DNA of 64,000 nt from a virus: positions 1 to 64,000 of IMG/VR virus record IMGVR_UViG_3300017963_000273, one strand, 5' to 3'. The position numbers and the translations under genes are program-made. Shown piece by piece: positions 2,928-50,681 of the stretch (within the stretch, counting starts at the first letter, position 1; every line of letters begins with the position of its first letter). The notes beneath the pieces were generated by a model. The model made no database searches. It was not told the origin of the DNA and worked only from the letters and a program-made list of their open reading frames with translations.

Positions 2928-3278
2928 TTATTCACTATCGGTTTCAGACATTAAAAATTGATATAACTCTTTTCTAGCAACTTCAATTAATTTTGGTCTT
3001 AATTGGTTATAAAGAAAACCATTATAAGTATCTATCTTATCTCGTTCCTCTTCTGGGGAAGAAGTATTGTAATCGTTTACCACAAGTTCTAAAGTTTCAC
3101 TCTGAAAATCATCATGACCAGGATTTCCACCAATTAAATTGTCAATCTGGCTTTCAAACTCTCTCATAATTTCTTCAAAATTTTCTTCGCTTACTTTAAC
3201 ACCAAGTGATTCTGTAATAATTAAAGTATCTTCAATACCTTCCATTAGTTTATTATATTTTTGTTTGAATTTAGACAT
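2928..3278 (-). CDS. Putative internal head protein (capsid-targeting N-terminus), 116 aa
   Basis: The first residues MSKFKQKYNKLMEGIED match the shared leader seen across this window, with a gp21-like cleavage site LME|G after residue 13. The mature part is acidic and predicted helical (long E/D-rich stretch about residues 20-60, RPKLIEVARKELYQF near the end). No enzymatic family is recognisable. By analogy with T4 internal proteins the leader would direct it into the prohead and be clipped. A diverged copy of the 72-bp cassette, with a TATAAATA box, lies upstream. Confidence 0.6.
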   Translation of the reverse strand: MSKFKQKYNKLMEGIEDTLIITESLGVKVSEENFEEIMREFESQIDNLIGGNPGHDDFQSETLELVVNDYNTSSPEEERDKIDTYNGFLYNQLRPKLIEVARKELYQFLMSETDSE

Positions 3279-3308
3279 TAATTGTCTCCTTTTTTAAATT
3301 CTTTAGAT

Positions 3309-3316
3309 TATTTATA
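3309..3316 (-). promoter_or_regulatory. T4-type late promoter (diverged relative of the 72-bp cassette)
   Basis: TATAAATA on the minus strand, 30 bases before the gene at 2928-3278. The upstream 65 bases keep the cassette pattern (TATACTTTG...GTTATATTATAA) but have diverged from the three identical copies. Confidence 0.6.
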
Positions 3317-3395
3317 AAATCATTCAAAAAAAAATTTTCCTTTTATAATATAACTTCAAAATAATCAAAGTATAATATCTTTTAATAAAAAAATT

Positions 3396-4082
3396 TTAGG
3401 TTAAACCTTTAATTTTCTTAAGACGTTCAATTTCAGCTTCCATTTCTTTAATCTTACTTTGCATGCTACTAACAGTATTATCAATACAATCTAGATTAAC
3501 ATCAAGTCCACGCTCAATTGCGCTTTGAAGATCTTCAGTTTCAGTTTCAATAGACTCAATTATAATATCAGTATCTGTAGAAGTATAATTTAGAATACCC
3601 CAAGTAAGTTTAATACTACCTGTTGAATTTAACATTTTTGAAAAATCAACTTCAGCTTTTGCTTGATCATATGTTCCAGCAAAATTTTCCCAACAATCAG
3701 ATACAGATTTTTTAGATACTACAAATGCCAAAACATATTTTCGAAGTTCATCATAAGTCTGACCAGACTGTGTAGTTAATTTTAGTAAATATACATTATC
3801 TTTTTTAGTTGCATACCATTCATTATCAAGTATACAATCTTCAATAACATCAACTTCCGCACCATAAATAAGATCTTCAACCTTACATCTAAAACGTGCT
3901 ATCGTAAGCATAGCAATTTCTAAAAGATCATCTGTTTCATTTGTAATTTCACGAAGTTGTTCAGCAGTCATATTTGTATTAACTGGAAGAATAGATTCAG
4001 TTGCATATGAAGCTGGTTTATCTTTTAGTAGGGCAATTTTTCTCTCTTTTACATCAAAGACGATATATTTCTCATCACTCAT
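3396..4082 (-). CDS. Hypothetical protein with C-terminal coiled coil (228 aa)
   Basis: The start MSDEKYIVFDVKERKIALL is preceded by an AAAGAGAAA ribosome site. The N-terminal 190 residues look globular and mixed alpha/beta. The last 25 residues (MQSKIKEMEAEIERLKKIK) form a clear heptad coiled coil suited to oligomerisation. No family recognised. It lies in the minus-strand accessory operon with NADAR and small Zn proteins, so a host-takeover or defence-related role is possible but only inferred from position. Confidence 0.7.
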   Translation of the reverse strand: MSDEKYIVFDVKERKIALLKDKPASYATESILPVNTNMTAEQLREITNETDDLLEIAMLTIARFRCKVEDLIYGAEVDVIEDCILDNEWYATKKDNVYLLKLTTQSGQTYDELRKYVLAFVVSKKSVSDCWENFAGTYDQAKAEVDFSKMLNSTGSIKLTWGILNYTSTDTDIIIESIETETEDLQSAIERGLDVNLDCIDNTVSSMQSKIKEMEAEIERLKKIKGLT

Positions 4083-4098
4083 TTCTCTTTTTCCTTAA

Positions 4099-4293
4099 TT
4101 ATTTAATTGTGATATCGTTTCGAGCAGCGTATTTTCTAGCACATGGAATAGAACAAAATAGTGTTCCATGGAATGTAGATTGTCCATATGTAGTTATTCC
4201 AAACATCCATGCAGAAGCTTTGCTACACCAAACGATACCAATGTTATGGTCTCTTGCAAATTTCTTTTGACAAACGTCACAAAATCCTTTCAT
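4099..4293 (-). CDS. Small zinc-finger protein (64 aa)
   Basis: MKGFCDVCQKKF carries a CxxC pair near the start and FCSIPCARKYA a CxxxC pair near the end, the layout of a treble-clef or knuckle Zn site. A late promoter box lies about 20 bases upstream. Function unknown; small Zn proteins of this size are common in T4-like accessory operons. Confidence 0.7.
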   Translation of the reverse strand: MKGFCDVCQKKFARDHNIGIVWCSKASAWMFGITTYGQSTFHGTLFCSIPCARKYAARNDITIK

Positions 4294-4313
4294 GGGAAAC
4301 CTCCGCTTTGTGT

Positions 4314-4321
4314 TATTTATA
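4314..4321 (-). promoter_or_regulatory. T4-type late promoter
   Basis: TATAAATA on the minus strand within a small palindrome (TGTTATTTATAACA), overlapping the stop of the NADAR gene and about 20 bases before the Zn-finger gene. Confidence 0.55.
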
Positions 4322-4793
4322 ACACAGCTTTAACGGAAGTAATCGCCTTTCCTAAGAGGTTCTGACCTGGCCATTTATCTGGATCAACTTGTTGTGCATT
4401 AGCTTCATCTAAACCAATTCCCCATACTGCATCGTATGGACTAGCTTCAACAAGAATTCTATCTTCTGTCGCCATTAATGCTTCTTTAGCATCTTCATTC
4501 TGAGTAAATTTAAGCATATTAGCAGTAAATACAATTTCGTATTTAACCGCGTCCCATACTTTATCATCAAAATTCTTTACTTGACGTCCAAGTTTCTTTT
4601 GATCACGTGGATTAAGAGTTGTTAAAACTTTCGCAGCAGTTTCTTCATCTTTAAAAACCATTGCTTTCTTATACATCATGTATTGTTCACAACAATTAAA
4701 ACGTATACCATGATCATCTACCATTGGAAATTTAGCCCATTGTGAAAATGGTCCATTCCAGAAAAACTCATAATTAGAGTAATTCGGATTCAT
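4317..4793 (-). CDS. NADAR/YbiA-family N-glycosidase
   Basis: 158 aa, the usual full length of the YbiA/NADAR fold. Conserved blocks are visible in order: FSQWAKFPMVDD (about 17), FNCCEQYMMYKKAMVF (about 33, with the catalytic-region Glu), PRDQKKLGRQVKNFD (about 62), LKFTQNED (about 94), EASPYDAVWGIGL (about 114) and WPGQNLLGKA near the end. The family cleaves N-glycosidic bonds of riboflavin intermediates, and members have been shown to remove ADP-ribose from guanine in DNA, countering DarT-type toxins. In a phage this suggests protection against ADP-ribosylation defence (inference). Confidence 0.88.
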   Translation of the reverse strand: MNPNYSNYEFFWNGPFSQWAKFPMVDDHGIRFNCCEQYMMYKKAMVFKDEETAAKVLTTLNPRDQKKLGRQVKNFDDKVWDAVKYEIVFTANMLKFTQNEDAKEALMATEDRILVEASPYDAVWGIGLDEANAQQVDPDKWPGQNLLGKAITSVKAVL

Positions 4794-5157
4794 AATTTTC
4801 TCCTTTAAATACTTCTTTCACTATATCCCAAAAATCCCCATCTTGCATAAGTGCGCCGACGGGGAAACGGGTTTCTTGATCATCATCAGGTCCAACTGAT
4901 ATAAAGTCTAAATCCTTTATATGATAATCAAATTTCTCAAAATCTTCTATTGTCTCTATAATACCATCAAATAAATTATTTGGTACTAAATCAACAACTG
5001 CTATTGAAAATTCAGACAATTTGAGACGGTCTTTATAAACTCCTTCAGCTATTGGAATACCAACGCCTAATTCACATTCGTAATTTTCATCCAATAACCA
5101 TAAGACAACGTAATCGCTATCTTCTTCCATTCTTGTTACAATTGCTAATTGTTTCAT
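4774..5157 (-). CDS. Hypothetical acidic protein (127 aa)
   Basis: Starts MKQLAIVTRMEEDSDYVVL and overlaps the start of the NADAR gene by 20 bases, so translation is probably coupled. It is strongly acidic with alternating beta segments. No family recognised. Confidence 0.65.
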   Translation of the reverse strand: MKQLAIVTRMEEDSDYVVLWLLDENYECELGVGIPIAEGVYKDRLKLSEFSIAVVDLVPNNLFDGIIETIEDFEKFDYHIKDLDFISVGPDDDQETRFPVGALMQDGDFWDIVKEVFKGENYESELL

Positions 5158-5172
5158 ACTTTCCTTAAAAGT

Positions 5173-5248
5173 TGGAGCCCAAGGACGGCATCGAACCGAC
5201 GACCTTCCCCTTACGAGGGGGTGACTCTGCCAACTGAGCTACTCGGGC
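5173..5248 (-). tRNA. tRNA-Thr(CGT)
   Basis: Acceptor GCCCGAG/CTTGGGC, D-arm GCTCAGTTGGCAGAG, anticodon loop CTCGTAA (CGT) on a CCCC/GGGG stem, T-arm with one mismatch (GTCGG/CCGTC), CCA encoded. Its 5' end overlaps the stop region of the gene at 5239-5445. Confidence 0.82.
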
Positions 5249-5445
5249 TTTGCAAATATCCAATTAAATAATCTTTTATACCAAGGCTTTCTTAATTTAA
5301 CCAAGTCTTTTTCAACTGATTCAGTTAAACAAGTTAAAATTCCTTTTTGAATAAACTTAGTCATAGCTTCATTATCTAATTCAACAGTCATAGTTGCTGA
5401 ACCATCATCATTTTCTTCAATTTTACCAACTATATCAATTTTCAT
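5239..5445 (-). CDS. Hypothetical protein (68 aa)
   Basis: Start taken at MKIDIVGKIEENDDGSATM, four bases after the stop of the upstream gene; a longer frame beginning MENISN would overlap that gene. The N-terminal half is beta-like, the C-terminal half basic and aromatic (KPWYKRLFNWIF). It ends inside the tRNA-Thr. No family recognised. Confidence 0.55.
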   Translation of the reverse strand: MKIDIVGKIEENDDGSATMTVELDNEAMTKFIQKGILTCLTESVEKDLVKLRKPWYKRLFNWIFAKPE

Positions 5446-5449
5446 AATA

Positions 5450-27777: not shown

Positions 27778-28257
27778 CTAAAGAGCATTAGGCAGACTTA
27801 TTAGAGGCTCATCATAATATGAATTAATTAGTTTTTCAAGATCGGAATTAATTAATTCGTTAGTAAGAGTTTCACCAATTCCAATTAATCTTTTAGTCCA
27901 ACGACTTGTTTCTCCTCCAATTTCTATTATATATACAAGACTTTTCTCAGGTGAATTATAATCAAAACTAATTACTATACTTATTGGAATAGATTTTTTA
28001 ATGGGATGTGTAGGAATCATGATTTCAATTGAATTATAATCTTTCTTTTCATACATTTTCATATATTCTGGAACGTTTAATTTGGTTCCAACTAATTTAA
28101 ATGCACCATATGCATCACGATAATTATCTTCAGTTATGTCTAATTCGAATTCATCTACATGAAGTTTTTTAAGTTTATTCAACCATGAACCAAACATTTT
28201 ATCTATCTCTGCTTTTTTATTAATTTTAAAAGCTTCCATCAATTTTTTAAATTTCAT
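27778..28257 (-). CDS. Putative internal head protein (capsid-targeting N-terminus), 159 aa
   Basis: MKFKKLMEAFKINKKAEID is one of the clearest leaders: LME|A after residue 8, then FK. The mature part has a helical start (KMFGSWLNKLKKLHVDEFEL) and a beta-rich second half (SIPISIVISFDYN, SLVYIIEIGGETSRWTKRLI). No enzymatic family recognised. It is first in the minus-strand late neck transcript, back-to-back with the plus-strand thymidylate synthase cassette. Confidence 0.65.
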   Translation of the reverse strand: MKFKKLMEAFKINKKAEIDKMFGSWLNKLKKLHVDEFELDITEDNYRDAYGAFKLVGTKLNVPEYMKMYEKKDYNSIEIMIPTHPIKKSIPISIVISFDYNSPEKSLVYIIEIGGETSRWTKRLIGIGETLTNELINSDLEKLINSYYDEPLISLPNAL

Positions 28258-30509: not shown

Positions 30510-32354
30510 TTAATTAACAACAAATCCAAGAGTTGTAATTTCTTCATCAGCATCATAACGATCGTTACTTTCTTGTGCTTCAAAAGCTTCACCAATAGTT
30601 TCTGGATTAGTTTTATGAATTTCGCTATATACTTTATTAAGGAATTCATCCATTTGTGATTGTTCTTGTTCAAAAGACATATCAAATTGATTAAGATGTA
30701 TTGGGAATTGTTGAACACCAACAACAGTAAATTCAGCGTCATAGAAGAATTCAACATTTTGCTGTTTAAGAATATAAAGTGCCCATACAGCTGCCATTAC
30801 ATGGTCATCATGTCTTCCTTTAGTAGCTCTATATGTAAATGTAGCACCAGTTTCAGCTTTTTCAAAATACTCTAGTTCAGTAAATAATTGTTTATTTCTA
30901 ATAAGAATATTTAATTTAGGATGATCGAAATAATCTCTAAATGTTTGACAAGCATCAATTTTTAGTTTATTGTTACTTAAAATACCGAGTTTTCTATGAC
31001 CAATAGATGCAACATTTTCATATTCATAAATTAAATGTAAGAATTCTACAACAGTATTTCCCATATTATTAGCTTCCACCATAATTGGAGCTTTATTATA
31101 AAGTAATCCAAGTTTAGCTAATAGATATGCTAGTTTTGCAGGAATAATTTTATTGTCACTAAAATAACATACTTCTGCAACTCTCTCAGTTGGATTAGTA
31201 ATATCAAAAATTGAAATAACACTAAAGTCATTACCAGTACCATCAGCAGGATCACAGCCAATTACATAACATTTGTCACGATCTGGTTTTTCATACATTT
31301 CAATTTTAAATTCATGAATACTTAAATTAGTAGTATCTGGAGGATTTTCCGATAAAAACTTTCTTTTACGTGGTAATCCTTCAAGATTAACAAGTGTATA
31401 TGTTGATCCCAAGAATTGATTTCCAAACTCTTGATTAAATTTCTTCATATCATAGTTAAATGATACTAATTGAGTTTCTTTCCATTCTTCATCTCGACCA
31501 GGTACATCCCACCAATCGATTTTAAAATCAGTCCAACGAACTTTATCTGTTCCTTTTCCAGTAACAGCACCGTTATATGTATCATAAAATAAGTTACCAG
31601 TACCATTAGGTGTTGAAACCATCACACATTTTGTATTTTTAGATGAAGAGATAATTGGATAAACAGATTCCCAAAGTTTATTCATAATATTAACTGGAAT
31701 AAACGCAGCTTCATCAATAAGTAGGACGTTACAGGATTTTGAACGAGCTGAGTCAGCGGTTGTAGATGAACCTTGAATAATACAACCATTTGAAAGTTTA
31801 ATTTTTCCTTTATTCCATTCAACAACACTAGGTTTTAACCATTTCGGTAATAACTCAAATGCTAAAGCTATACGTGACATAATCTCAAGTGCTGTTTCTT
31901 GTTTATTGGCAATGATAAGAATTCGTTTATCCTTATTAAAACACATTAACCAAGTAGCAAAAATACAATATGAAGTCGTTTTACCAGTTTGTCGAGCAGC
32001 TAATACAACTACACGATCATCATTAATCATTGTGTTAATTAATTCAGCCTGTTTTGGATAAGTCTTAATAATATGCTGACCTTTATCCAAACTAACAATT
32101 GTGTAATAATTTTCTGCGAAATAAATTGGATCCATCATACACTTTAAATATTCTTGAGATTTGAATAAATGAGTGTCATAAGGAAGAGGTACGGAACTAT
32201 TCTCTGTTAGTCCATACATGTTTCTGTAGTTTAGTTGCTCGTAAGCGTCTTCTAAAAGTTGAAGGTGTTCTTCTCTGGTTTTCTCGCGATGTTCGTAAAT
32301 TTCTTCAAAGTGAAGTTCTTCACGAGCCATTGGTTTAACCATGTCTATTTGCAT
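30510..32354 (-). CDS. 17: Terminase large subunit gp17
   Basis: 614 aa, matching T4 gp17 (610). Start taken at the ATG with AGGAG 8 bases upstream. ATPase: VVVLAARQTGKTT Walker A about residue 120, CNVLLIDEAAF Walker B about 210. Nuclease: YVIGCDPADGTGNDFSVISI about 365 (first catalytic Asp), VEANNMGNTVVEF about 440, and KGRHDDHVMAAVWAL about 545. It packages DNA into proheads. No gp16-like small subunit is evident in the window. Confidence 0.96.
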   Translation of the reverse strand: MQIDMVKPMAREELHFEEIYEHREKTREEHLQLLEDAYEQLNYRNMYGLTENSSVPLPYDTHLFKSQEYLKCMMDPIYFAENYYTIVSLDKGQHIIKTYPKQAELINTMINDDRVVVLAARQTGKTTSYCIFATWLMCFNKDKRILIIANKQETALEIMSRIALAFELLPKWLKPSVVEWNKGKIKLSNGCIIQGSSTTADSARSKSCNVLLIDEAAFIPVNIMNKLWESVYPIISSSKNTKCVMVSTPNGTGNLFYDTYNGAVTGKGTDKVRWTDFKIDWWDVPGRDEEWKETQLVSFNYDMKKFNQEFGNQFLGSTYTLVNLEGLPRKRKFLSENPPDTTNLSIHEFKIEMYEKPDRDKCYVIGCDPADGTGNDFSVISIFDITNPTERVAEVCYFSDNKIIPAKLAYLLAKLGLLYNKAPIMVEANNMGNTVVEFLHLIYEYENVASIGHRKLGILSNNKLKIDACQTFRDYFDHPKLNILIRNKQLFTELEYFEKAETGATFTYRATKGRHDDHVMAAVWALYILKQQNVEFFYDAEFTVVGVQQFPIHLNQFDMSFEQEQSQMDEFLNKVYSEIHKTNPETIGEAFEAQESNDRYDADEEITTLGFVVN

Positions 32355-32381
32355 CGTTAAATCTCCTATTTTTACCAAAAA

Positions 32382-33023
32382 TTAAAATAGAGATAATTGA
32401 TCATCCTCATTTGTTTGAGCTTGGTGGACTGATCGTTTTATCTCGTCAATGTCCGCGTCAGTTTCAATAGAAACAATTCGATTTCTATCTCCCTGACTTA
32501 TATAATCAACAGAGACTTCATCATAATCATCAATAAAATTGTCTAATTGACCAAAATTTAGATGACCGACATGCTCATTGTTGAATTTCACGGTATATGA
32601 ATTAATACTATTTTTAGTAATATTGATGTAATTTTTGTTTTTATGAGGAGGAACTTTAATTCCAAGTATATTTGCAGTAATACTTTTAATGATAGACCAG
32701 TTATTGGTATAACCGTCTCTATTAGCAATTAATTTTGCAGTTTTTAATGCTTTAACAACCTCGTTCTCATCATATATATCCAGTTCTTTTGCAAATTTCT
32801 TTGTAATATTTTCTGAAGTTATATTTTCCCATTCTTCTCTATCAAAAGATTCTGTTACAGGAACTTTAAAAGCTTCCATAATTTGATCGAATTTCTCGTT
32901 AAATTTTCCGCCTTTCATTTTCTTATAAATTCCCATAATGTATGCATAGTTTTTTCCCTTACCTGATTTTTTAGCTAATTTCTTAGCTTTTGACCATTTC
33001 TTTTCGTCAACACCTTTAGGCAT
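32382..33023 (-). CDS. Putative internal head protein with KNYAYIMGIYKKM module and internal capsid-targeting site (213 aa)
   Basis: Residues 1-39 (MPKGVDEKKWSKAKKLAKKS, then KNYAYIMGIYKKMKGGK) form a basic module I know from other phage proteins. It is followed directly by NEKFDQIMEAFKVPV, the full leader with IME|A, here at residues about 42-53 instead of the N-terminus. The rest is alpha/beta (GHLNFGQLDNFIDDYDEVSV). Overlaps its neighbour by 8 bases. The placement implies either a longer propeptide or a fusion. Confidence 0.6.
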   Translation of the reverse strand: MPKGVDEKKWSKAKKLAKKSGKGKNYAYIMGIYKKMKGGKFNEKFDQIMEAFKVPVTESFDREEWENITSENITKKFAKELDIYDENEVVKALKTAKLIANRDGYTNNWSIIKSITANILGIKVPPHKNKNYINITKNSINSYTVKFNNEHVGHLNFGQLDNFIDDYDEVSVDYISQGDRNRIVSIETDADIDEIKRSVHQAQTNEDDQLSLF

Positions 33024-37172: not shown

Positions 37173-38710
37173 TTTTATCCGTCAAGAAGACCAAAAATAG
37201 GCTGAAGATATCGTCGTCTAATTTGGAATTACTGAATTTCATACGGAGACGTCTTACAGTAAAAAATCCAAATTATCGCTTCACGCCTTATGGACAAGAA
37301 GAAGTTTCGTGCATCTCTCCGAGCTTCACTTTCATGAATGGTCTTCTATTCGATGTTCTCAAGGAGGCTAGACTCTATGATCCAGATGTTAAAATTGATC
37401 TTGGAGAAGCAAAAACATCTGCTATTCCTTTTTCAATTGATGTGGATGAGCTAGAACCTCCTGAGAACACCGTTTTTAAATATCGTGATTATCAACGTGA
37501 ATCGATTGTACAGGGTTTAAAATTTGGAAGAGGAATATTTGAACTTGCAACCGGTGCAGGTAAGTCATTAGTAATTTATGGGCTCATTAAGAATATTTGG
37601 AAACATACTAGTAAGAAAAATGTTCTTGTATTAGTTCCAAATGTTCAGTTAGTAGCTCAAATGGCTTCCGATTTTATTGAATATGGCTGTGATCCATCAA
37701 TAATTTGTAAATTTACTGCAACTATTGAAAGAAAGATTAGTCCAGTAGCCAATATAATTATATCTAATCGTAGTTGGTTAACAAAACATGCTGATGAGCT
37801 TCCAGATATTGATATTATGATCATTGATGAAGTTCATATGATGTCTGATTCTGGAAGCAAGACTTTTAAAATGGCAAATAAGATTAAAACTGAAGTTAGA
37901 TTTGGTTTTACTGGTACGATGCCAGAATGGGCAATGTCAAAGTGGAATGTTATAGGTGTAACTGGTCAAATTCTTAAAATTAAGAGAGCTAGAGAATTAC
38001 AAGATACTGGTTATGTAGCAAAAACAAAAATTGTTTCAGTTCGTTTTAAACATGAACGAAAACCTCAAACAGATCCTGAACTTACTGCTTTATTAAAAGA
38101 AGCACGTGCTGCTGAAGATGAAGATGCTGTTGGATTAATTAAATTAGAAATAGCAAAAGCTCGTTTTCCAACAGAATGGCGTTTCATTGAAGATTGTATG
38201 TTTACAAATCAATTTATGTTAAGAATGATGGCAAAATTTGATGGTAATACTATTATGTTATACGATCATGTTGAGCATGGAAATAAATTAAGAGAATATC
38301 TTGAGAAAATAGCTCCAGAAAAACAAATTTTTCTTATTGATGGTAGTACATCTGTCGATTATCGTGAAAATGTTAGAGTAGCTATGGAAGCTAGTGATAA
38401 CTGTTTTTTACTTGGTAATAGTAAATGTGTAGCTGTGGGTATGAATGTAAAGAATATTAAAAATGTTGCATTTGGATTTTCTTCTGGATTAGCAGCATCC
38501 AAAATTATTCAGTCTATTGGCCGTGGATTACGTCTAAAAGATGGCAAGACACATGTCAGAATAATTGATTTTTATCATGAATTAAGATATTCTCAAGCAC
38601 ATTATACCGAAAGATTAAAACTATACGGTAAACATTACGGAATCAATTCTTCTGACATTGTTCAAAAATTTATTGATGTACAATACGGTAATGAATTATC
38701 TAATTTCTAG
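37169..38710 (+). CDS. uvsW: UvsW-like SF2 helicase
   Basis: 513 aa against 503 in T4 UvsW. FKYRDYQRESIVQGLKFGRG precedes Walker A ELATGAGKS about residue 128, IMIIDEVHMMS (DEVH) about 222, GFTGTMPE about 250, and IIQSIGRGLRLKDGKTHVRI with motif VI about 448. UvsW unwinds recombination intermediates and R-loops, driving the switch from origin- to recombination-dependent replication. Confidence 0.93.
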   Translation: MILSVKKTKNRLKISSSNLELLNFIRRRLTVKNPNYRFTPYGQEEVSCISPSFTFMNGLLFDVLKEARLYDPDVKIDLGEAKTSAIPFSIDVDELEPPENTVFKYRDYQRESIVQGLKFGRGIFELATGAGKSLVIYGLIKNIWKHTSKKNVLVLVPNVQLVAQMASDFIEYGCDPSIICKFTATIERKISPVANIIISNRSWLTKHADELPDIDIMIIDEVHMMSDSGSKTFKMANKIKTEVRFGFTGTMPEWAMSKWNVIGVTGQILKIKRARELQDTGYVAKTKIVSVRFKHERKPQTDPELTALLKEARAAEDEDAVGLIKLEIAKARFPTEWRFIEDCMFTNQFMLRMMAKFDGNTIMLYDHVEHGNKLREYLEKIAPEKQIFLIDGSTSVDYRENVRVAMEASDNCFLLGNSKCVAVGMNVKNIKNVAFGFSSGLAASKIIQSIGRGLRLKDGKTHVRIIDFYHELRYSQAHYTERLKLYGKHYGINSSDIVQKFIDVQYGNELSNF

Positions 38711-38930
38711 ATTTACTCATTAATCCTTCAAGCTCTTCGTCACTAAATAATTCGAATCCTTTAATACCAAAATCATTTTTAATTTGGTCTTTAAATTCTT
38801 TAATAGAACCGTCGAAATCCATTTGTCCAATCAAGAATGTAATGGAATTTTTAAGATTCTTCAGATAGTATTCTGAGGCACCCATAGCTTCTGTTAAAGC
38901 TTGCTCATAGCTTTGTGTAAATTTACTCAT
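38700..38930 (-). CDS. Putative internal head protein (capsid-targeting N-terminus), 76 aa
   Basis: Start taken at MSKFTQSYEQALTEAMGAS, with LTE|A after residue 14; it overlaps the upstream gene stop by 8 bases. The remaining about 62 residues are helical (YYLKNLKNSITFLIGQMDFD). It converges on uvsW, overlapping its stop by 11 bases. Confidence 0.6.
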   Translation of the reverse strand: MSKFTQSYEQALTEAMGASEYYLKNLKNSITFLIGQMDFDGSIKEFKDQIKNDFGIKGFELFSDEELEGLMSKSRN

Positions 38931-39345
38931 CTTCAGTTCCTTCAAGCAATGACCCTTGATCATCAAAAAATTTGAATGTAATCAAACCATTTTTGACTTC
39001 CATCTCTATAAAGTACGGTGAAGCCGAAATTCTTCTTATATCTTCTTTATTGATTTTTGAATGTTGGTGTTGAGTAACCAATGAATGGTGATCACCATCT
39101 TCAAGAAACCAAAAAACAACTCTATCAAGTCTAGGATCATATTTCTTTATTCGATTTCTAATATCCTTGACAAGTTCAGTACCTTCTAGTCTTCGCCAGG
39201 TTGGCTTTTCGCGTACAGGTTCCTCTTTATCTTTATCATCTGCTTCTTCCTCAATAGAGGTATGTTCCTTAGCTTTCATTTCCCAAGGCATATCCTCATT
39301 AAGCATTTTTCTATATGCATTTAGATATTTTCTATCACTATTCAT
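38923..39345 (-). CDS. Putative virion-associated protein (140 aa), weak capsid-targeting start
   Basis: MNSDRKYLNAYRKMLNEDMP resembles the leaders (LNE|D, an imper­fect site). A charged linker (about residues 30-50) leads to a domain with ELVKDIRNRIKKYDPRLDRV, VVFWFLEDGDHHSLV and ISASPYFIEMEVKNGLITF. Family unknown. Shares a divergent late-promoter pair with the gene at 39412. Confidence 0.55.
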   Translation of the reverse strand: MNSDRKYLNAYRKMLNEDMPWEMKAKEHTSIEEEADDKDKEEPVREKPTWRRLEGTELVKDIRNRIKKYDPRLDRVVFWFLEDGDHHSLVTQHQHSKINKEDIRRISASPYFIEMEVKNGLITFKFFDDQGSLLEGTEDE

Positions 39346-39411: not shown

Positions 39412-39714
39412 ATGACCATGAAAAAGTTTCTTGAATCATATAATAAAGCTCTAGATGATCTAGAAAATTTAGATGAAGCAATTAAGAAGACTGTTTCCAG
39501 AACAAAAGATGGGAAAGTTAATGTTTCATACAAATCTACTAGATCAGGTTATAGAGTAAAGAAAATTAAAGGTAGACCTGTCGAAGTTCGTATGTCACCA
39601 ATTGAAAGACGACATCGTTCAGAAGCTGCTAAGAAAGCTGCTAAGAAACGTAAAAATAAGACTAAAGTTAAGAAAAGTCAAACACGCGTTAAGAAAAAGA
39701 AGTTACGTAAATAA
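39412..39714 (+). CDS. Small very basic protein (100 aa), capsid-targeting-like start
   Basis: MTMKKFLESYNKALDDLENL with LDE|A about residues 20-23 (and FLE|S at 6-8). The C-terminal 45 residues are Lys/Arg-rich (SEAAKKAAKKRKNKTKVKKS), suited to binding DNA. A basic internal protein would resemble T4 IP-type proteins packed with the genome. The RRHRSEAAKKAAKKRK part also occurs in other small phage proteins. Confidence 0.6.
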   Translation: MTMKKFLESYNKALDDLENLDEAIKKTVSRTKDGKVNVSYKSTRSGYRVKKIKGRPVEVRMSPIERRHRSEAAKKAAKKRKNKTKVKKSQTRVKKKKLRK

Positions 39715-40082: not shown

Positions 40083-42230
40083 ATGCCAATTAGACAAATT
40101 AATAGTCCTGGTGTTGAGATTCGTGAAATCGATAAAAGTCAGGCAACTCCTACTATTGTTGGAACTGGCGTACTCGTCATGGGTTATGCTAACAAAGGTG
40201 AAGCATATAATCCTGTTGATGTAATTTCGATCTCAGATCTGGAAACAAATTTCGGTAAACCAACCAATGAAGCCGAGAGATATTTTTATTATACCTGTAG
40301 CGAAGTTCTTAATGAGAACGGTAGTCTTGTTGCAGCTAAATTGCCATATAGTAATGACATGGATACTAAGTATAAGTACGTTTCTGTGAATGTAGATGGT
40401 GGTACTACACCTAATCAAGTAGATATTGCTACTGTATCTGCCGATCTTCCTGAGATCAGCGGTGCTGTTATTGAACTTGAAAGTACTTCTGCTACTCTTG
40501 CTAACTTTGTAAAAGTTACTGCTTCTACTGTTAGTGAAATTGATAGAGATGATTATGATGTTCTTGCTGCTGGTGGAACATTTGCTGATCCTGGTGGTGG
40601 CGAATTTGTAATTGTTAACGAACTTAAAGATACTCGTACTGGAGCAAAATTTGACGAAGGTTTATTCGTTACAGTTGTGGATCCAATTCACGGTATGCTT
40701 GCTCAACGTGCAATTGCAGATCCATCTACTCCTGATGCTGATATTATGAAAATTATAGCTGAGGGTGAACTTAGTGGTAGTACCTTTATTGATAATCTTT
40801 CTGCTACATACGCAGGATCTTCAATATCTGAAAATATGATGAATTATTTCCCTGCTATTGAGTTTGTTGACAATGGTACAAATATCTCTAATGAATTCAG
40901 TGATTATGTAACTGTTATTGTTTCAAAAACAGTTTCTAATCCTAATAGTAATGGAGATCTTAACGTTGTTATTCAAGAAGCATGGTCTGGTTCACTTAAA
41001 AATACTGCTATTGATACATCAACTGGTCAATCAACATATATCGGTGACGTAATTAATCGTAATTCAGTTTATATTAAATGGTATGCAACAAATCCATCTA
41101 ATGCAACTACACTTGCTGGTAATATTGCTGATACTGATTGTTTCTATACTATTCCGCAAGATATTAGTCTTGCAACATTTACAGCAGCTGAAGCCGTTAA
41201 AACTATTGTTGGTCAAAGCGTTGTTCCTGATATGGAAATTGTAATGGAAAAAGTTGCTAATATTGATGATCGTCAGATTGATATTGTTGTTGATGGTGGA
41301 CTTTCCACTATTTCACAGTTTGTTACTTCTGGTGTATTTGATCCAATTAATAAAGCTATTAGTCCTGGTGCATCATATCCAATTACAAGTTCTACTGATA
41401 CATCTAAATGGCGTGCCGTTGCAACAGCAATTGATAATTTCTGTAAGAATGTTCGTAAAGATTGTATGGGTATTGTCGATGTTCCTCGTAACCTCGTACT
41501 TGATGCAGATAAAAAGTATATTAGAAAGACTGCTCCTACTCAGACTTTCTCTAATACCATTGCACCAAAACTTAAATTCTGTACTGGTCTAAACAGTAGC
41601 TATCTTGCAGCTTATTCAGATTGGACACGTGTTTTTGATACTCATAGTGGACTTGATGTCTGGCTTCCAGAATCTATTAAAGCAGCTGGAGTTTATATTC
41701 GTACCGATAGAGTTGGTAATATTTGGGATGCACCTGCAGGTGTTAATCGTGGTATTATGAATGGTGTTAATGACCTCGCCTTTAATCCACGTGAAAAAGA
41801 AGCATCGCAGTTGTATACTAAATCATTCAACTATGCTAAACAGTATCCGTTAGATGGTTTTGTACTTGAAGGTCAGAAAACCACACAAGTTAAACCATCT
41901 GCATTTGATCGCGTTAATGTTCGCCGTCTATTCCTTAGACTTGAACGTTTCGTATATCAAATTTCCAGATACTTTGTTATGGAACCAAATAATGTGTTCA
42001 CACGTCGCCGCCTCGTTGCAGCAATTGAACCATTGTTCCAGACAATTAAGGCTGAAGGTGGATTATATGATTTCAGAATCGTATGTGATGAAACTAATAA
42101 CACACCAACAGTTATTGATAATAATGAATTGAAAGTTGCAATCTTATTGAAACCTGTGCGTACAGCAGAGTTCATTTTAGTAGACTTTATTGCTACTAGA
42201 ACAGATGCGAATTTCGATGAGTTTCTATAA
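40083..42230 (+). CDS. 18: Tail sheath protein gp18
   Basis: 715 aa (T4 gp18 is 659). The start INSPGVEIREIDKSQATPTI is the sheath signature; the C-terminal core with SGLDVWLPESIKAAGVYIRT, RVGNIWDAPAGVNRGIMNGV, AFDRVNVRRLFLRLERFVYQ and RRLVAAIEPLFQTIKA is strongly conserved. It forms the contractile sheath. Has its own late promoter and a downstream terminator, allowing high monocistronic expression. Confidence 0.97.
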   Translation: MPIRQINSPGVEIREIDKSQATPTIVGTGVLVMGYANKGEAYNPVDVISISDLETNFGKPTNEAERYFYYTCSEVLNENGSLVAAKLPYSNDMDTKYKYVSVNVDGGTTPNQVDIATVSADLPEISGAVIELESTSATLANFVKVTASTVSEIDRDDYDVLAAGGTFADPGGGEFVIVNELKDTRTGAKFDEGLFVTVVDPIHGMLAQRAIADPSTPDADIMKIIAEGELSGSTFIDNLSATYAGSSISENMMNYFPAIEFVDNGTNISNEFSDYVTVIVSKTVSNPNSNGDLNVVIQEAWSGSLKNTAIDTSTGQSTYIGDVINRNSVYIKWYATNPSNATTLAGNIADTDCFYTIPQDISLATFTAAEAVKTIVGQSVVPDMEIVMEKVANIDDRQIDIVVDGGLSTISQFVTSGVFDPINKAISPGASYPITSSTDTSKWRAVATAIDNFCKNVRKDCMGIVDVPRNLVLDADKKYIRKTAPTQTFSNTIAPKLKFCTGLNSSYLAAYSDWTRVFDTHSGLDVWLPESIKAAGVYIRTDRVGNIWDAPAGVNRGIMNGVNDLAFNPREKEASQLYTKSFNYAKQYPLDGFVLEGQKTTQVKPSAFDRVNVRRLFLRLERFVYQISRYFVMEPNNVFTRRRLVAAIEPLFQTIKAEGGLYDFRIVCDETNNTPTVIDNNELKVAILLKPVRTAEFILVDFIATRTDANFDEFL

Positions 42231-42282: not shown

Positions 42283-42813
42283 ATGAGTAAATTTAAAACA
42301 ATGTACAAAAAAACTATGACTGATCTTAAGAAACTTAAAGAAAGTTATGGTTATGAAATTGATGAAGATGAAGAATTAGATAGTGGTGGTATAGTTAGTA
42401 CTAATGATGAAAATTTTCATAAAACACCAGTATTTAAAAAGGTAGTTAATGTAATTCAATCAATTGTAGGAAGTGAAGAACAAGAATCAGCTTGGTCTGG
42501 TCAGTTTGAAATTGAAGATTTACCTGAAGATATTGATTGGGCTACTGTTTTTGTAACTGATGAAGGTATACTTAATTGGGTCGTTAAAAAAGGTCCTGAT
42601 GGTTATGCTGAATTAGAAGTAGAAGGTAATATTATTAAATGTGAAGATCCAGATGAATCATTCGAAATTTTCCAAGGATATTCTGATGTTGATGTTGACG
42701 GAGCATTAGCAACAAAACCTACTGAAGAAGTTAAAGAAAAATTTAAACTACCTTCAAAGAAAGTTATTGCTGCTAAGAAAAAAGAGTTCGAAGCATCAAA
42801 GAAAAACAAATAA
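42283..42813 (+). CDS. Putative internal head protein (capsid-targeting-like start), 176 aa
   Basis: Start MSKFKTMYKKTMTDLKKLKE with GGAG 6 bases upstream; LKE|S about residue 20. Acidic segment (EIDEDEELDSGG), then a small domain (KKVVNVIQSIVGSEEQESAW, IDWATVFVTDEGILNWVVKK) and a basic C-terminal tail (KLPSKKVIAAKKKEF). Function unknown. Confidence 0.55.
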   Translation: MSKFKTMYKKTMTDLKKLKESYGYEIDEDEELDSGGIVSTNDENFHKTPVFKKVVNVIQSIVGSEEQESAWSGQFEIEDLPEDIDWATVFVTDEGILNWVVKKGPDGYAELEVEGNIIKCEDPDESFEIFQGYSDVDVDGALATKPTEEVKEKFKLPSKKVIAAKKKEFEASKKNK

Positions 42814-43683: not shown

Positions 43684-44211
43684 ATGTCTAACAAAGTTTA
43701 TAAACAAGCATATAGAGAAATGCTTTTAGAAAATGAACAAGGTGCAGTTACACCAGAAAAACCAGCTGCTCCAGTTCAAAAAACTACAAATTCTGAACTT
43801 ACAACTTCAAATGAAACTTCATGGGAAAAAGTTCCAGAAAACGCTGAAGAAATTAAAGCTGAAATTATTACTTCTGTTTCTAGTATTACAGGAAACGAAA
43901 ATTCTCAGGCTTATAAATCAAAAAATCGTTCTGGTAATGATCAGATAATGTTTGAAATGGATATTGAAGTGCTACGCACAGAAGATATTCAAGAACTTAT
44001 TAAAAATGGTATGGCTGCTGTTTATTTTAAAGATGGTATTGTATGGCCTGTTTTTGTTGGTGAAGTACTTTCTCAGCAAGAAATGGAAGATACTAAACCT
44101 GATAAACCGCTTCCTGATACTGATAATGATTTTAATAAACCAAGTCCATCTCCTGAACAAAAATCAGTAGAACCAGAAAAGAACGAAGAAGCACCTAAAA
44201 CGAGCGAATAA
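43684..44211 (+). CDS. Hypothetical virion-type protein (175 aa), weak capsid-targeting start
   Basis: MSNKVYKQAYREMLLENEQG (LLE|N at residues 14-16) resembles the leader of the 140-aa protein at 38923. A Pro/Ala/Thr-rich linker follows, then a domain (EEIKAEIITSVSSITGNENS, IQELIKNGMAAVYFKDGIVW) and an acidic Pro-rich end. Family unknown. Confidence 0.55.
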   Translation: MSNKVYKQAYREMLLENEQGAVTPEKPAAPVQKTTNSELTTSNETSWEKVPENAEEIKAEIITSVSSITGNENSQAYKSKNRSGNDQIMFEMDIEVLRTEDIQELIKNGMAAVYFKDGIVWPVFVGEVLSQQEMEDTKPDKPLPDTDNDFNKPSPSPEQKSVEPEKNEEAPKTSE

Positions 44212-44214: not shown

Positions 44215-44937
44215 ATGAAGTTTTCTAGAGAATTGAGAAAAATTGCTGAAGTAATTGACGAAGCAATATGTGAAGATTTTGTATCTTTCCAAATGGTTGG
44301 AAATACAGGTGATGTTTATTTTCTCCGTAATGTAGAAACAGGAAAAGAACCAAAAGTTATTGATAATTTTTCCAATAATGATTATTGGGATGCTTTTGCT
44401 GGTAATGATGAACATGTTATAGAAAATGATTTTGATTGGAAAAAAATTGGTGATGAAATGCCAATGATATCTTTCCGTTTAGAAAAGATGTCAGTTAGAG
44501 ATCAAAAATTACATGTTATTACAGGTCCATCTATTTCAAATCTTGCGATTCAAATGGATAATATTATCTTCGATATTTTTGAAGAACATGGTGAAAAAGT
44601 TAATGTTGGTAATTTTTATGATCAAGATTTTTATACAAAAGTTTTGATGGAATCACAAAAAATTGCAATTAATTCAAAACGTGGTCCATGTACTGCAATT
44701 TTGACACCATTCAAATTTGAACCAGATTATAAAATTATGAAAGATCGTTATGTCGATTGTGGTAGAAAAAATATTGTAATGACTTTTAAAGGTATAACAT
44801 GTTATGATGCTGCAATTGTGGTTGTTCCAACATCATTAACTGAAAAAAGTGACTTCGGGAGAGTTACAGAAGTCTCTATGTCATTTTATGCAATTCCAGT
44901 AAATGTTGATAAATACGCAAGAATTTTAATTACTTAG
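44215..44937 (+). CDS. Hypothetical structural protein (240 aa), possible capsid-targeting start
   Basis: MKFSRELRKIAEVIDEAICE has candidate sites IAE|V and IDE|A. The rest is a folded alpha/beta protein (FVSFQMVGNTGDVYFLRN, MISFRLEKMSVRDQKLHVIT, IVMTFKGITCYDAAIVVVPT) too large and regular for a typical internal peptide. Could be a head or tail completion protein; no T4 counterpart identified. Starts 3 bases after the previous gene. Confidence 0.55.
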   Translation: MKFSRELRKIAEVIDEAICEDFVSFQMVGNTGDVYFLRNVETGKEPKVIDNFSNNDYWDAFAGNDEHVIENDFDWKKIGDEMPMISFRLEKMSVRDQKLHVITGPSISNLAIQMDNIIFDIFEEHGEKVNVGNFYDQDFYTKVLMESQKIAINSKRGPCTAILTPFKFEPDYKIMKDRYVDCGRKNIVMTFKGITCYDAAIVVVPTSLTEKSDFGRVTEVSMSFYAIPVNVDKYARILIT

Positions 44938-45414: not shown

Positions 45415-46014
45415 ATGAGTAAATTTAATAAAAGATATAAAGAGATTTTAGAAAGTCTTATAAATGAAGAACTAACAGATCAACAAGAATTTGTTAGAAA
45501 TAATGTTACTACTCTTGATGCAGATGTAGTTGCCCAAACATTGGGTGGAGAAGCAACATCTGAAAACGCATATAAAATTGTTAATGATTTTATTGAAGAT
45601 CTTCCAGAAGAAGTTATAGATAGATTAGCTATTTTAATTAGAACTGATGAAACATCAAGTGATGATGAACAAGTTTTTAATAATCTATTGAATAAATTTG
45701 ACGAAAGTCCTAACTTTAATGTTATGGAAATGAGTCCTGCTGCTTATGCGGATCCTGATGTTCCTGCTGGTGAAGCTGCAAAGAAATATATGATAGTTAC
45801 TTGGTCTGAAGATAGAATTAAAGATTGGCTTGGACCTGCTGCTGACGACGAAGATGAAGTAGCTGAAGCACAAGCTCATCATTATGAAATTACTATTTCT
45901 GATGGAATGGTAAGACTTGAAAGAGCAGATATTCCTGTTGGAATTAACGAGCTTGAAATTGAAATTATGGATTTCATCCAGGATGCTGGATATGAAATTA
46001 TAAATGTTGAGTAG
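45415..46014 (+). CDS. Putative internal head protein with LGG-helical domain (199 aa)
   Basis: MSKFNKRYKEILESLINEEL gives ILE|S after residue 13. Residues about 25-80 are paralogous to the domain in the 278-aa protein at 29663 (shared DxxDxVxxLGGxxTxxNAxxIVNxxIxDL). The second half is acidic (PAADDEDEVAEAQAHHYEIT). The two proteins therefore share leader plus first domain but carry different C-termini, as expected for modular injected proteins. Confidence 0.65.
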   Translation: MSKFNKRYKEILESLINEELTDQQEFVRNNVTTLDADVVAQTLGGEATSENAYKIVNDFIEDLPEEVIDRLAILIRTDETSSDDEQVFNNLLNKFDESPNFNVMEMSPAAYADPDVPAGEAAKKYMIVTWSEDRIKDWLGPAADDEDEVAEAQAHHYEITISDGMVRLERADIPVGINELEIEIMDFIQDAGYEIINVE

Positions 46015-47785: not shown

Positions 47786-47786
47786 T

Positions 47787-47948: not shown

Positions 47949-47952
47949 ATAT

Positions 47953-48042
47953 ATTGGCATGTCAGGTAGGATTCGAACCTACAGTGAAGAATTACCTTCG
48001 CCGGTTTTGGAGACCGGGGCCATACCATTTGACGACTGACAT
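47953..48042 (-). tRNA. tRNA-Trp(CCA) with long variable arm
   Basis: Acceptor ATGTCAG/CTGACAT, anticodon stem CCGGT/ACCGG, loop CTCCAAA (CCA), T-arm GTAGG-TTCGAAT-CCTAC, discriminator G, 3' CCA encoded. The variable region is about 18 bases and folds as GAAGG-TAAT-TCTTC, unlike any standard tRNA-Trp. Confidence 0.87.
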
Positions 48043-48073
48043 GTTTTAATTTCTAATTTTCAAAGATCACTTT

Positions 48074-48156
48074 TGGTGGCTAGGGACGGATTCGAACCGC
48101 CACAGCATATGCGGGACTTTTACAGAGTCTTGAACTCACCAATGTTCAGCCTAGCC
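48074..48156 (-). tRNA. tRNA-Tyr(GTA), copy 1
   Basis: Acceptor GGCTAGG/CCTAGCC, anticodon loop CTGTAAA (GTA) on a GACT/AGTC stem, class II variable arm as in bacterial Tyr, T-stem GGCGG/CCGTC, discriminator A, CCA encoded. Confidence 0.87.
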
Positions 48157-48159
48157 ATT

Positions 48160-48245
48160 TGGTGGTGCGGGTAGGAATCGAACCTACGATGTTTCTAATG
48201 TAACTGTTTTACAGACAGCGTCCTTCGCCGCTTGGATACCACACC
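48160..48245 (-). tRNA. tRNA-Tyr(GTA), copy 2
   Basis: Acceptor GGTGTGG/CCGCACC, anticodon loop CTGTAAA (GTA) on a CTGT/ACAG stem, 16-base variable arm, T-arm GTAGG-TTCGATT-CCTAC, CCA encoded. First tRNA after microgene 3. Confidence 0.9.
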
Positions 48246-48266
48246 ATATTTAAGAATTTGCCCAAT

Positions 48267-48292
48267 AAAAAAGGCGAGCTTTGTAGCTCGCC
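48267..48292 (-). terminator. Rho-independent terminator of microgene 3
   Basis: On the minus strand GGCGAGC-TACAAA-GCTCGCC is followed by TTTTTTATTG. Confidence 0.9.
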
Positions 48293-48324
48293 AGTAACCG
48301 GGGGGAGATTATTTAATATCCATT

Positions 48325-48423: not shown

Positions 48424-48495
48424 TTAAGTTTATTTATAACTTTTCAATTATTTTTTCGTTGTTATAATATAACCTAAAAACTATAAAAGTATAGT
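48424..48495 (-). repeat. 72-bp promoter cassette, copy 3
   Basis: Identical over 72 bases to the copies at 2831 and 8886, about 40-46 kb away, again between the stop of a capsid-targeting-leader gene and a microgene-terminator-tRNA series. Confidence 0.85.
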
Positions 48496-48519
48496 AGCTT
48501 TAAATAAATTTTTAACTCC

Positions 48520-48975
48520 TTACATTTTATTTAAATATGCGTTAGCTATTCGAGGTTTAAGTTTATTTAATGCTTTATTAAGATCTGAACCTCTAATAAT
48601 TCCTGGTCTTTCATAGACTATAGTTTCATTACCAGCTTTAATACTGGAAAATCTAACTTTTACTAAATCTTCAGTAACAATAACTTCTAAAAATATAATA
48701 ATTGGCGTTTTGATAAAATTATCTGCTTTATCCCTATAAGATACTGTAGTTACAATTTGTGGTAGGCCCCCACCACGATTAACTAATTCATTTGGTTTAA
48801 TTTTATCTTTTATTTTAGCTAAAATCAACTGTTTAATTTCAGTAGGTAATAATTCATCTTCAGTTGACATAACAAAATCATCAACTTGAATTTCATCAAA
48901 TTCACTAAAAAACTTATCATATAACTTATTAAAAGTTGGAACTTTAAAAGCTTCTGTTAATTTACAAAATTTCAT
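48520..48975 (-). CDS. Putative internal head protein (capsid-targeting N-terminus), 151 aa
   Basis: MKFCKLTEAFKVPTFNKLYD has LTE|A after residue 8 followed by FKVPT, nearly the consensus of the family. The mature part is mixed alpha/beta (IIFLEVIVTEDLVKVRFSSI) with a helical C-terminus. No enzymatic motif. Divergent from the 453-aa gene. Confidence 0.65.
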   Translation of the reverse strand: MKFCKLTEAFKVPTFNKLYDKFFSEFDEIQVDDFVMSTEDELLPTEIKQLILAKIKDKIKPNELVNRGGGLPQIVTTVSYRDKADNFIKTPIIIFLEVIVTEDLVKVRFSSIKAGNETIVYERPGIIRGSDLNKALNKLKPRIANAYLNKM

Positions 48976-49008
48976 TATATTTTGTTCCTTTTGTGTTTAT
49001 TTATTATA

Positions 49009-50370
49009 ATGGATAAGAAAACTCTACTTGCTGATTTTTATATGTATGAATTCATTTGTCAATATGGAAAAACAGATGATGAAATACTTGAATTTGATCT
49101 TCGTGAAGAAGTTATTGAATTTTTAGATGATTTTAAATATGAGTTAAAAACCATTTTAGAATATTCAATAGTTCATGAATTATCACACATATGGTGGGAA
49201 ACATGTGATTATAATGGACTTCAATTACCATCTTTAGGTGGTGATCGTTATTATGTAGAACAACATATTTCTGATGAAAGTGCTATTATTTTACAAGATT
49301 TCTTAGATGAATATAAACGTTTTCTTCCTAAATATGAATTTGATAAAGAATTAGAAGGTGTAGATAGAGCATGGGCTTATAAGCGTGTTTTAGATGCTCC
49401 AGAAAATGTTTGTACATTTATTAGAGATACTAAAACATTGTTTTCAAGACTTGAATGGAGACATAATTTTGGTGGTAAAAAATGGAAAGATATAGCAGAA
49501 GCATATTTAAGACTTTTAGATGCAGAAGATTATCTTCTTGATAATCAACTTAATATTTTTACTGAGATAGATAGAATTTTAGATCTACAGCATAATACTA
49601 ATACAATATTTAATAAGATTCCAAGCTATAAAGATGAAAATTCTTATAATTGGTTAACTGAATTTCTTAACTTCAAAAGAGATCTAAAAGATCCATGGGA
49701 ACTCTATAAATACTGTGGGAAATCTAAAAAGTTAGCAGCTAAAAAGTTAAAAAAATTAGGATTTGGTACAAAAGAGGAAAAAGAAGAAATGTCACTACCA
49801 CCAAAAGTACAAGAACAATTAGATCGTTTAGACCAACAAGATTGGTCATTGGCAAAAGGTGTTATAACTAATGTTGTAGATGTTGATGCAAGTCATTTAA
49901 AAGAAATGTTAGATGAAAAATTTGATTTTTCAGATATTGTCGAAAAATTGAAAAATTCATTAGATAAATTTACAGAACTTCAAGAAAAGGTTGGAAATAC
50001 TAGTGATGAATTTTCTGAAACGATTAACTATGTTGGAGATAATTTTGATGATTTAAGTTCTGGAATAGCAGATTCTATAGAAACTTTAGAATCTAATTTA
50101 AAAGAAGTTAATGATACAATAACTGAACATCTTATACGTCATACTGAAATAATTGATAATATTGAGAATCAAATTAAAATCAATACTAACAAAATTGAAT
50201 CTTATTTAGAAGAACAAAAATCTGAACTTCGTGAATATATTAAAGAACAAATTGCAACTGTAGATCCAGCTTTTAGAACTACATATGAATTACTTGATGA
50301 AATTTACGAAGCTATTACCACACCTTGGTATAAAAAACTTATAAATATGATAAAGAAGATATTTGTATGA
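49009..50370 (+). CDS. Hypothetical protein with long coiled coil and HELSH motif (453 aa)
   Basis: Start taken at MDKKTLLADFYMYEFICQYG; no good ribosome site is visible. Residues about 50-70 contain SIVHELSHIWWETCDY, an HExxH match in a helix that may be a metallopeptidase site or chance. From about residue 285 to 430 the protein is a long coiled coil (KLKNSLDKFTELQEKVGNTS, TITEHLIRHTEIIDNIENQI), ending in an amphipathic basic helix (PWYKKLINMIKKIFV). Possibly a fibre or membrane-binding structural protein. Confidence 0.6.
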   Translation: MDKKTLLADFYMYEFICQYGKTDDEILEFDLREEVIEFLDDFKYELKTILEYSIVHELSHIWWETCDYNGLQLPSLGGDRYYVEQHISDESAIILQDFLDEYKRFLPKYEFDKELEGVDRAWAYKRVLDAPENVCTFIRDTKTLFSRLEWRHNFGGKKWKDIAEAYLRLLDAEDYLLDNQLNIFTEIDRILDLQHNTNTIFNKIPSYKDENSYNWLTEFLNFKRDLKDPWELYKYCGKSKKLAAKKLKKLGFGTKEEKEEMSLPPKVQEQLDRLDQQDWSLAKGVITNVVDVDASHLKEMLDEKFDFSDIVEKLKNSLDKFTELQEKVGNTSDEFSETINYVGDNFDDLSSGIADSIETLESNLKEVNDTITEHLIRHTEIIDNIENQIKINTNKIESYLEEQKSELREYIKEQIATVDPAFRTTYELLDEIYEAITTPWYKKLINMIKKIFV

Positions 50371-50681
50371 GTAATTTTAAAACACAAGTAATGCGTAATG
50401 CCGTTAAGATTCAGACGAAATTTAATCGTGATATAACTGAAGGCTGGAATCTTCTCTTATCCGGAAAAGATAATGATGAAGTTAGTTTTATTGTGTTAAT
50501 TGATGATGGAACAAAACTTACCGGAACAATGTCTCTTACTGGTAAAGATATTATGATTGAATGGGAATCTGATGTTAAATTTTCACTTGAAGGTCTTACA
50601 TTTGGTGAAGATCTTGAAGAAGCTCTTACAGAAATGGTTACACTAATTAGGATTGAAAAATACAATGAAGAAATTTTATAA
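50367..50681 (+). CDS. Hypothetical protein (104 aa), possible capsid-targeting start
   Basis: MSNFKTQVMRNAVKIQTKFN then RDITEGWNLLLSGKD, giving a candidate ITE|G about residue 25. The remaining domain is a small beta sheet (VSFIVLIDDGTKLTGTMSLT, DIMIEWESDVKFSLEGLTF). Overlaps the upstream gene by 4 bases. Confidence 0.55.
   Translation: MSNFKTQVMRNAVKIQTKFNRDITEGWNLLLSGKDNDEVSFIVLIDDGTKLTGTMSLTGKDIMIEWESDVKFSLEGLTFGEDLEEALTEMVTLIRIEKYNEEIL

Follow-up and report, generated by a model that had tools for sequence, protein, structure and literature searches.

A T4-like N-terminal leader on numerous, mostly different proteins in a fragment of an uncultured myovirus

INTRODUCTION

The carriers of a short N-terminal packaging leader in phage T4 are the three internal proteins (IPI, IPII and IPIII) and Alt. 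Of these, IPI and Alt are understood best: IPI blocks the GmrSD restriction enzyme, and Alt modifies the host RNA polymerase. Their leader (MKTYQEFIAE/A in the internal proteins, a slash marking the cut here and below) has an early aromatic residue, a further hydrophobic one and (L/I)xE before A. We have found leaders of this design in a window of 64,000 bases out of the 67,986-base IMG/VR virus record IMGVR_UViG_3300017963_000273, which is a piece of a deeply divergent, uncultured T4-superfamily myovirus, a bacterial virus. As judged from the sequence, the carriers number about 15 to 18 and are mostly different proteins; the phage is alike to T4 also in the mostly different mature parts of the carriers, in its superfamily and in its late-type promoter boxes.

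For IPIII, packaging needs no more than the first ten residues, of which 4 and 7 serve chiefly targeting and 8 and 10 processing, and the T4 internal proteins are described as basic (PMC9026906). The layout of the window leaders is similar. Many internal proteins have been described as ejection proteins in the giant phages SPN3US and phiKZ, and some of them have propeptides that are cut after glutamate by the prohead protease (PMC5694885). Several of those propeptides exceed 100 residues, whereas the ones predicted here mostly have 8-25 residues (50 in the gene at 32382). In P1 DarB, a short N-terminal stretch is enough for capsid entry (PMC9024508); the likeness, drawn by description only, lies in the short packaging signal, while P1 is an unrelated phage and the Dar N-termini have no consensus. 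The T4 core proteins gp22, gp67 and gp68 also have (L/I)xE[AGS] sites near the N-terminus, and in other phages, genes that adjoin gp21 in the core position have leader-like starts. In contrast to these core genes, the window genes are scattered and do not lie in a head cassette.

LEADER-BEARING GENES IN THE WINDOW

A preliminary description had listed 18 genes with such starts. All of the 18 exist, and close to its N-terminus each has (L/I)xE with A, G or S as the next residue, but details of four had to be corrected: MSNFEKQLKTIREAFKRP is the start of gene 8979-9329, and gene 9322-10059 begins MKYQKLYEKLHLIDEA; the start codon of gene 29663 is at 30499 (MKFKKFFNLLIEA); and the leader of gene 32382 is internal, with a 36-residue module ahead of it. 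The genes, named hereafter by their lower coordinate, are listed below with the predicted cut and the scores of the profiles described in the following text.

27778..28257, minus strand: leader gene of the shared-domain subset, MKFKKLME/AFKINK; leader profile 25.6-27.4 bits, mature-domain profile 11.2 bits
33016..33486, minus strand: leader gene of the shared-domain subset, MKFHELQE/AFKLTK; leader profile 16-18 bits, mature-domain profile 18.7 bits, above every shuffle
48520..48975, minus strand: leader gene of the shared-domain subset, MKFCKLTE/AFKVPT; leader profile 19-21 bits, mature-domain profile 14.0 bits
34113..34622, minus strand: leader gene, MSFNEKFNEIME/AFKYPK; leader profile 22-24 bits
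33516..33830, minus strand: leader gene, MSKFLNKVQELSE/AFKLPT; profile 16-18 bits; upstream TATAAATA box at 33848-33855
32382..33023, minus strand: leader gene with internal leader, FNEKFDQIME/AFKVPV after the module KKWxKAKKxAxxxGxxxNYAYIxGIxKKM; profile 19-20 bits
8979..9329, minus strand: leader gene, MSNFEKQLKTIRE/AFKRPS; leader profile 7.4-9.1 bits
29663..30499, minus strand: leader gene adjoining the terminase gene, MKFKKFFNLLIE/AKEDQI; leader profile 8.6-10.1 bits
2928..3278, minus strand: leader gene, MSKFKQKYNKLME/GIEDTL; profile 9.2-9.4 bits; upstream TATAAATA at 3309-3316
45415..46014, plus strand: leader gene, MSKFNKRYKEILE/SLINEE; profile 6.1-7.7 bits; upstream TATAAATA at 45377-45384
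42283..42813, plus strand: probable leader gene, MSKFKTMYKKTMTDLKKLKE/SYGYEI; leader profile 6.1-8.1 bits
9322..10059, minus strand: probable leader gene with basic mature part, MKYQKLYEKLHLIDE/AGIAKK; leader profile 6.5-7.9 bits
26459..26989, minus strand: probable leader gene between the Ad2-like and Hc2-like connector genes, MKYDRLKE/GIYPFN; profile 5.8-7.3 bits
23764..24507, minus strand: probable leader gene beside the tail tube gene, acidic product, MKSTKAAILE/AYNEII; orthologues
38700..38930, minus strand: possible leader gene, MSKFTQSYEQALTE/AMGASE; motif alone
39412..39714, plus strand: possible leader gene, M(TM)KKFLESYNKALDDLENLDE/AIKKTV; isoelectric point (pI) of the mature part 11.8; TATAAATA at 39380-39387; listed for motif, box and composition
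44215..44937, plus strand: possible leader gene, MKFSRELRKIAEVIDE/AICEDF; motif; leader profile 3.6-5.0 bits, which is noise
50367..50681, plus strand: possible leader gene, MSNFKTQVMRNAVKIQTKFNRDITE/GWNLLL; motif; TATAAATA at 50340-50347
38923..39345, minus strand: possible extra member with non-canonical site, MNSDRKYLNAYRKMLNEDMPW; TATAAATA at 39376-39383
43684..44211, plus strand: possible extra member with non-canonical site, MSNKVYKQAYREMLLENEQG
50665..50937, plus strand: possible extra member with non-canonical site, MKKFYKVFEKVSTSLRAEQS; leader profile 4.7-6.1 bits, which is noise

A leader rule (a start, at most three residues of K, S, N or T, then F or Y, then (L/I)xE[AGS] within 28 residues) was matched by 15 of the 89 genes in a greedy gene set of the window; the number predicted from internal positions within these proteins is 0.46. 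Since the rule was drawn up after the window had been seen, two independent checks were made. When applied to 49 kb of T4, the rule gave three matches, which are exactly IPI, IPII and IPIII. The other check was a leader profile trained on leaders from other contigs only, with the window excluded; a leader-profile search of the whole genome and of related phages had been proposed in the preliminary description. Over 45 residues, genes 27778, 34113, 48520, 32382, 33516 and 33016 score 16-26 bits, and in shuffles the mean number of matches is 0 from 11 bits upward and 0.25 from 7 bits upward. Over 26 residues, genes 29663, 2928 and 8979 reach 9-10 bits, and genes 42283, 9322, 45415 and 26459 about 7-8 bits, close to the noise floor of about 7 bits where unrelated matches start. 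Thus nine window genes have been recovered cleanly and four marginally. The other five listed genes (23764, 38700, 39412, 44215 and 50367) depend mainly on the cut-site motif, gene 23764 being backed also by orthologues, and three further candidates (38923, 43684 and 50665) are without a canonical site. Almost no leader matches were obtained from shuffles, internal positions and reversed patterns, and the leaders are real. A synonymous-codon test gave no information on the leaders, since the codon use is too AT-biased.

The octamer TATAAATA, which we take to be the T4 late promoter core, occurs 31 times in the window against 12.4 expected, and none of 100 shuffles had a count as high. Of the 19 leader-gene starts (this number includes extra candidates), 10 have a late-type box at a distance of 15-75 bases upstream; such a box was also seen before 13 of the 70 other genes and in 1.4% of random 60-mers.

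LEADERS IN RELATED PHAGES

In the following, G000 is the record holding the window, and other G and L numbers denote other records and contig stretches, respectively. Scans with leader patterns picked up few contigs across the viral collection, the clade of the window among them. One pattern scan, of 2.9 million viral contigs, yielded G003, and the last, with a stricter pattern, left five stretches in the whole collection, namely G003, L002 and three others. The L002 terminase is 82% identical to that of the window, and L002 has four strong leaders (MKKFNKRYQEIVEAFKVG, MKYRELKEAFTGP, MKYRELKEAFSGP and MKFKKLLEAFSGI). The gene at L002:6636-7313 is the orthologue of gene 32382 (1e-41), and the module, as KW.KAK...YAYI.GI.KKM, again precedes the leader; the same module is also found as a separate short open reading frame at L004:2058-2279. 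G003 (82.7 kb) has eight strong leaders and one weaker leader. It gave one trivial match only to the window proteins, and may be another portion of a sister genome. In G006, whose terminase is 45% identical, the leaders take T4-like versions, MKTFKQFVSEN and MKTFKQFFEDE, which are near the T4 IPI start MKTFKEF.

Independent occurrences were found in marine T4-like contigs. In L025, L037 and L038, MKFLRLIEAFK begins a 121-residue protein encoded immediately after gp23, and L025 and L038 also show the cassette, made up of portal, gp21-like protease, gp22-like scaffold and gp23. The gp21 protease was confirmed in G017, the record of L025, and a related record, G013, has the same leader protein together with portal and gp23. 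Among 80 loci gathered around gp21, the better matches to the leader profile include genes adjoining gp21, with the starts MKLKKLLEG and MDxKYExLIESY.

Several other matches were set aside. The sole pattern match in Melnitz falls within the DNA polymerase and is a chance match, and the matches in L006, L008, L013, L020, L022, L026, L032, L033 and L035 begin within longer open frames. The strict leader pattern gave no match in bacterial genome contigs.

Two further observations concern cytidyltransferases. The G006 protein that begins with MKTFKQFFEDE (L059:5367-6968) has a cytidyltransferase domain. In G011, neighbouring genes at L028:6519-10526, one of which encodes a cytidyltransferase, have the leader-like starts MIEFNEFITEAKN, MVINSFKNYLVEEE, MIGLREFIVEK, MKSFKELRG and MKFKSFVEAFS.

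MATURE PARTS OF THE LEADER PROTEINS

Most pairs of mature parts differ, but the view in the preliminary description that they have no relation to each other does not hold for a subset. A domain profile built from the eight G003 leader proteins detects genes 33016, 48520 and 27778, and gene 29663 weakly; and the products of genes 29663 and 45415 have a stretch of 65 residues in common (4.6e-6). Alignment A2 has a leader that hardly varies, against a mean column identity of about 20%.

Homologues in related phages were found for two other mature parts. That of gene 34113 is homologous to L002:3955-4812 (L002_3952; blastp 1e-10), which holds an additional domain following its own leader. That of gene 23764 is homologous to L004:6266 (2e-23), whose start is MKSNRSIVLEAYN, and a G006 protein that supports the leader of gene 23764 (L059:7586) begins MKYEKKAIMEAYN.

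Several searches with the leader proteins in Pfam, PHROGs and NCBIfam produced no convincing match. For gene 48520, the AlphaFold2 model is fair (mean predicted local distance difference test score of 77.6), and a fold search with it in viral and PDB libraries gave no match below E 0.03. Gene 9322 had looked lysozyme-like by eye, but no match was found in Pfam (best 0.012, to a domain of unknown function), PDB sequences and NCBIfam, and its single-sequence structure model was poor; we therefore assign it no function. As a separate observation, the small proteins encoded at 39418-39714 and 43358-43648 have lysine- and arginine-rich C-terminal tails in common.

OTHER FEATURES OF THE WINDOW

The phage is placed in the T4 superfamily because its large terminase is T4-type. 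This terminase is less than 40% identical to those of cultured phages among the best matches listed. Use of the tail sheath as a marker for relatives in viral contigs found none.

30510..32378, minus strand: large terminase, T4-type (Pfam Terminase_6N/6C and PHROG terminase matches)
40083..42230, plus strand: tail sheath (PHROG 23, 6.7e-68)
24554: tail tube
26993 and 25386: connector proteins
42923: GroES-like protein
Elsewhere in the window: two helicases

There are 30 tRNA genes in two clusters (1-8700 and 46300-48300). Leader genes 27778 and 29663 are separated by a thymidylate synthase-like gene (28451-29356) of opposite orientation. Fibre- or adhesin-like proteins, which look related and have similar starts, are encoded at 60244-63819 of the window and in L001. 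Insertions that resemble inteins, with HN as their end and T or C as the next residue, were seen in the terminases of the relatives L003 (496-2337) and L004 (4157-5674), at the Walker A region (ARQTGK/TT) in L003 and ahead of AAFIP in L004; the window terminase has no such insertion.

DISCUSSION

The best reading is that the carriers form an unusually large cargo addressed by a T4-like propeptide, and for the clear members we consider it likely, from the sequence comparisons, that their common N-terminus is a capsid-targeting propeptide of T4 type. This is because the leader has the design found in T4 (a start, an aromatic residue, a further hydrophobic residue and (L/I)xE/A), and related phages have the same leader on different proteins. 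It is also found on a protein from a gp20-gp21-gp22-gp23 cassette in other members of the T4 superfamily, and the leader genes have late-type promoter boxes ahead of them. We lean slightly toward delivery of most of the mature parts into the host.

We infer binding, cutting, packaging, ejection and any host-directed function along the following lines. The leader-bearing proteins would be made late in infection from T4-type late promoters. The short amphipathic leader, which is aromatic or hydrophobic at about position 3-4, has a second such residue 3-4 residues later and ends in (L/I)xE, would bind the prohead scaffold core, and the shell would close around the proteins. A gp21-family protease would then cut after the glutamate, leaving the mature protein free inside the head. 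On infection, the mature proteins would exit together with the DNA and have their effect early in the host, or they might help to shape the head.

Several results weigh against this reading. Up to nine of the listed members are at or near noise in the independent profile, and the strict rule gives no clear excess in the T4-superfamily relatives G004, G007, G008, G012 and G014. T4 IPI, IPII and IPIII score 0.0 to -0.4 bits in the leader profile, which means no detectable homology. The mature parts are mostly acidic (pI 4-5.5), those of 39412, 9322 and 48520 being basic, whereas the T4 internal proteins are described as basic (PMC9026906). Conservation in the main class extends beyond the predicted cut (EAFKxP, of which AFKxP follows the cut), and a simple removable leader does not account for it. 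Finally, a search with the Pfam S77 model in the window's own record and 16 other records found no gp21-family protease in G000, G003, G004 and G006; it was present in G007, G008, G017, G019, G020 and G021, and Melnitz, which is among the closest cultured phages by terminase, has one.

The missing protease is uninformative, because portal and capsid genes, which every tailed phage needs, are missing too: portal and gp23 were equally not found in G000, G003, G004 and G006. Searches for head genes (tblastn with marine gp20-23, and Pfam gp23 and portal) found none in the clade's fragments except for a weak gp23 match in L049, which is probably due to chance, and marine gp22 had no match in the window. 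The clade's fragments simply lack the head cassette, or the cassette is too divergent for the models; scans of the viral contigs with the leader pattern and with a gp21 alignment did not reach it.

The analogy to T4 capsid targeting holds for design, spread, the gp20-23 cassette and late-type boxes, and fails for leader homology and basic mature parts. Because these two features are lacking, we do not place the window proteins in the T4 internal protein family, though their leader would resemble the T4 capsid-targeting sequence in action. The window proteins also differ from those of T4 in number (15-18 in 64 kb against three internal proteins and Alt), in the AFKxP after the cut, which the main class has and the three T4 internal proteins have not, and in that some mature parts are paralogous.

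Among other explanations, the leader could be a prohead-core signal on carriers that are mostly core, scaffold or head-structural proteins, like T4 gp22, gp67 and gp68, and not delivered effectors. We think this unlikely but worth serious consideration, since the post-gp23 protein of the marine relatives and the gp21-flanking ones occupy core-protein positions, genes 23764 and 26459 have tail-tube and connector genes as neighbours, and the products of 39412 and 23764 are very basic and very acidic, respectively. However, the carriers are numerous, diverge fast and have turned over between L002 and the window, and in this they resemble an arms-race set and not conserved structure. It is improbable that the N-terminus instead docks the proteins, uncut, elsewhere (tail, baseplate or a host factor): the conservation of EAFKxP beyond the predicted cut and the leader genes among tail and connector genes would suit such docking, but the (L/I)xE[AGS] ending matches the gp21 site and the independent occurrence is in the head cassette, not in tail modules.

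We judge it quite improbable that the shared start reflects mere common descent of a duplicated family with no targeting role. The domain that genes 27778, 33016, 48520 and perhaps 29663 share with the eight G003 leader proteins, and the 65 residues common to 29663 and 45415, would fit such descent; yet the leader is also on 34113, 33516, 32382, 23764, 9322 and 45415, which have no detectable relation to the shared domain, and in unrelated marine phages, and alignment A2 shows it far better preserved than the average column. Chance resemblance in an AT-rich, lysine- and glutamate-rich proteome, which the weak members 44215, 50367 and 38700 recall by scoring no better than profile noise, is already refuted for the six strongest members and is made negligible by the near-empty controls described above.

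Returning to the targeting propeptide, we offer a doubtful extension of it: a two-part address, consisting of a removable leader and an AFKxP kept at the new N-terminus, might load each virion with a set of proteins that evolves fast, may exceed 20 in number, includes the paralogous domain family and serves mainly as pre-formed counter-defence. New features are that the carriers are so numerous, that the leaders with a retained AFKxP form a class of their own, and that a domain family is associated with them. If the proteins are loaded, a leader marking at least 15 mostly uncharacterised proteins would provide a sequence-based listing of candidate delivered effectors from uncultured genomes, many of them probably directed against host defences. 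This would allow us to ask how many different proteins a T4-like head carries, and how targeting signals diverge under a constant design.

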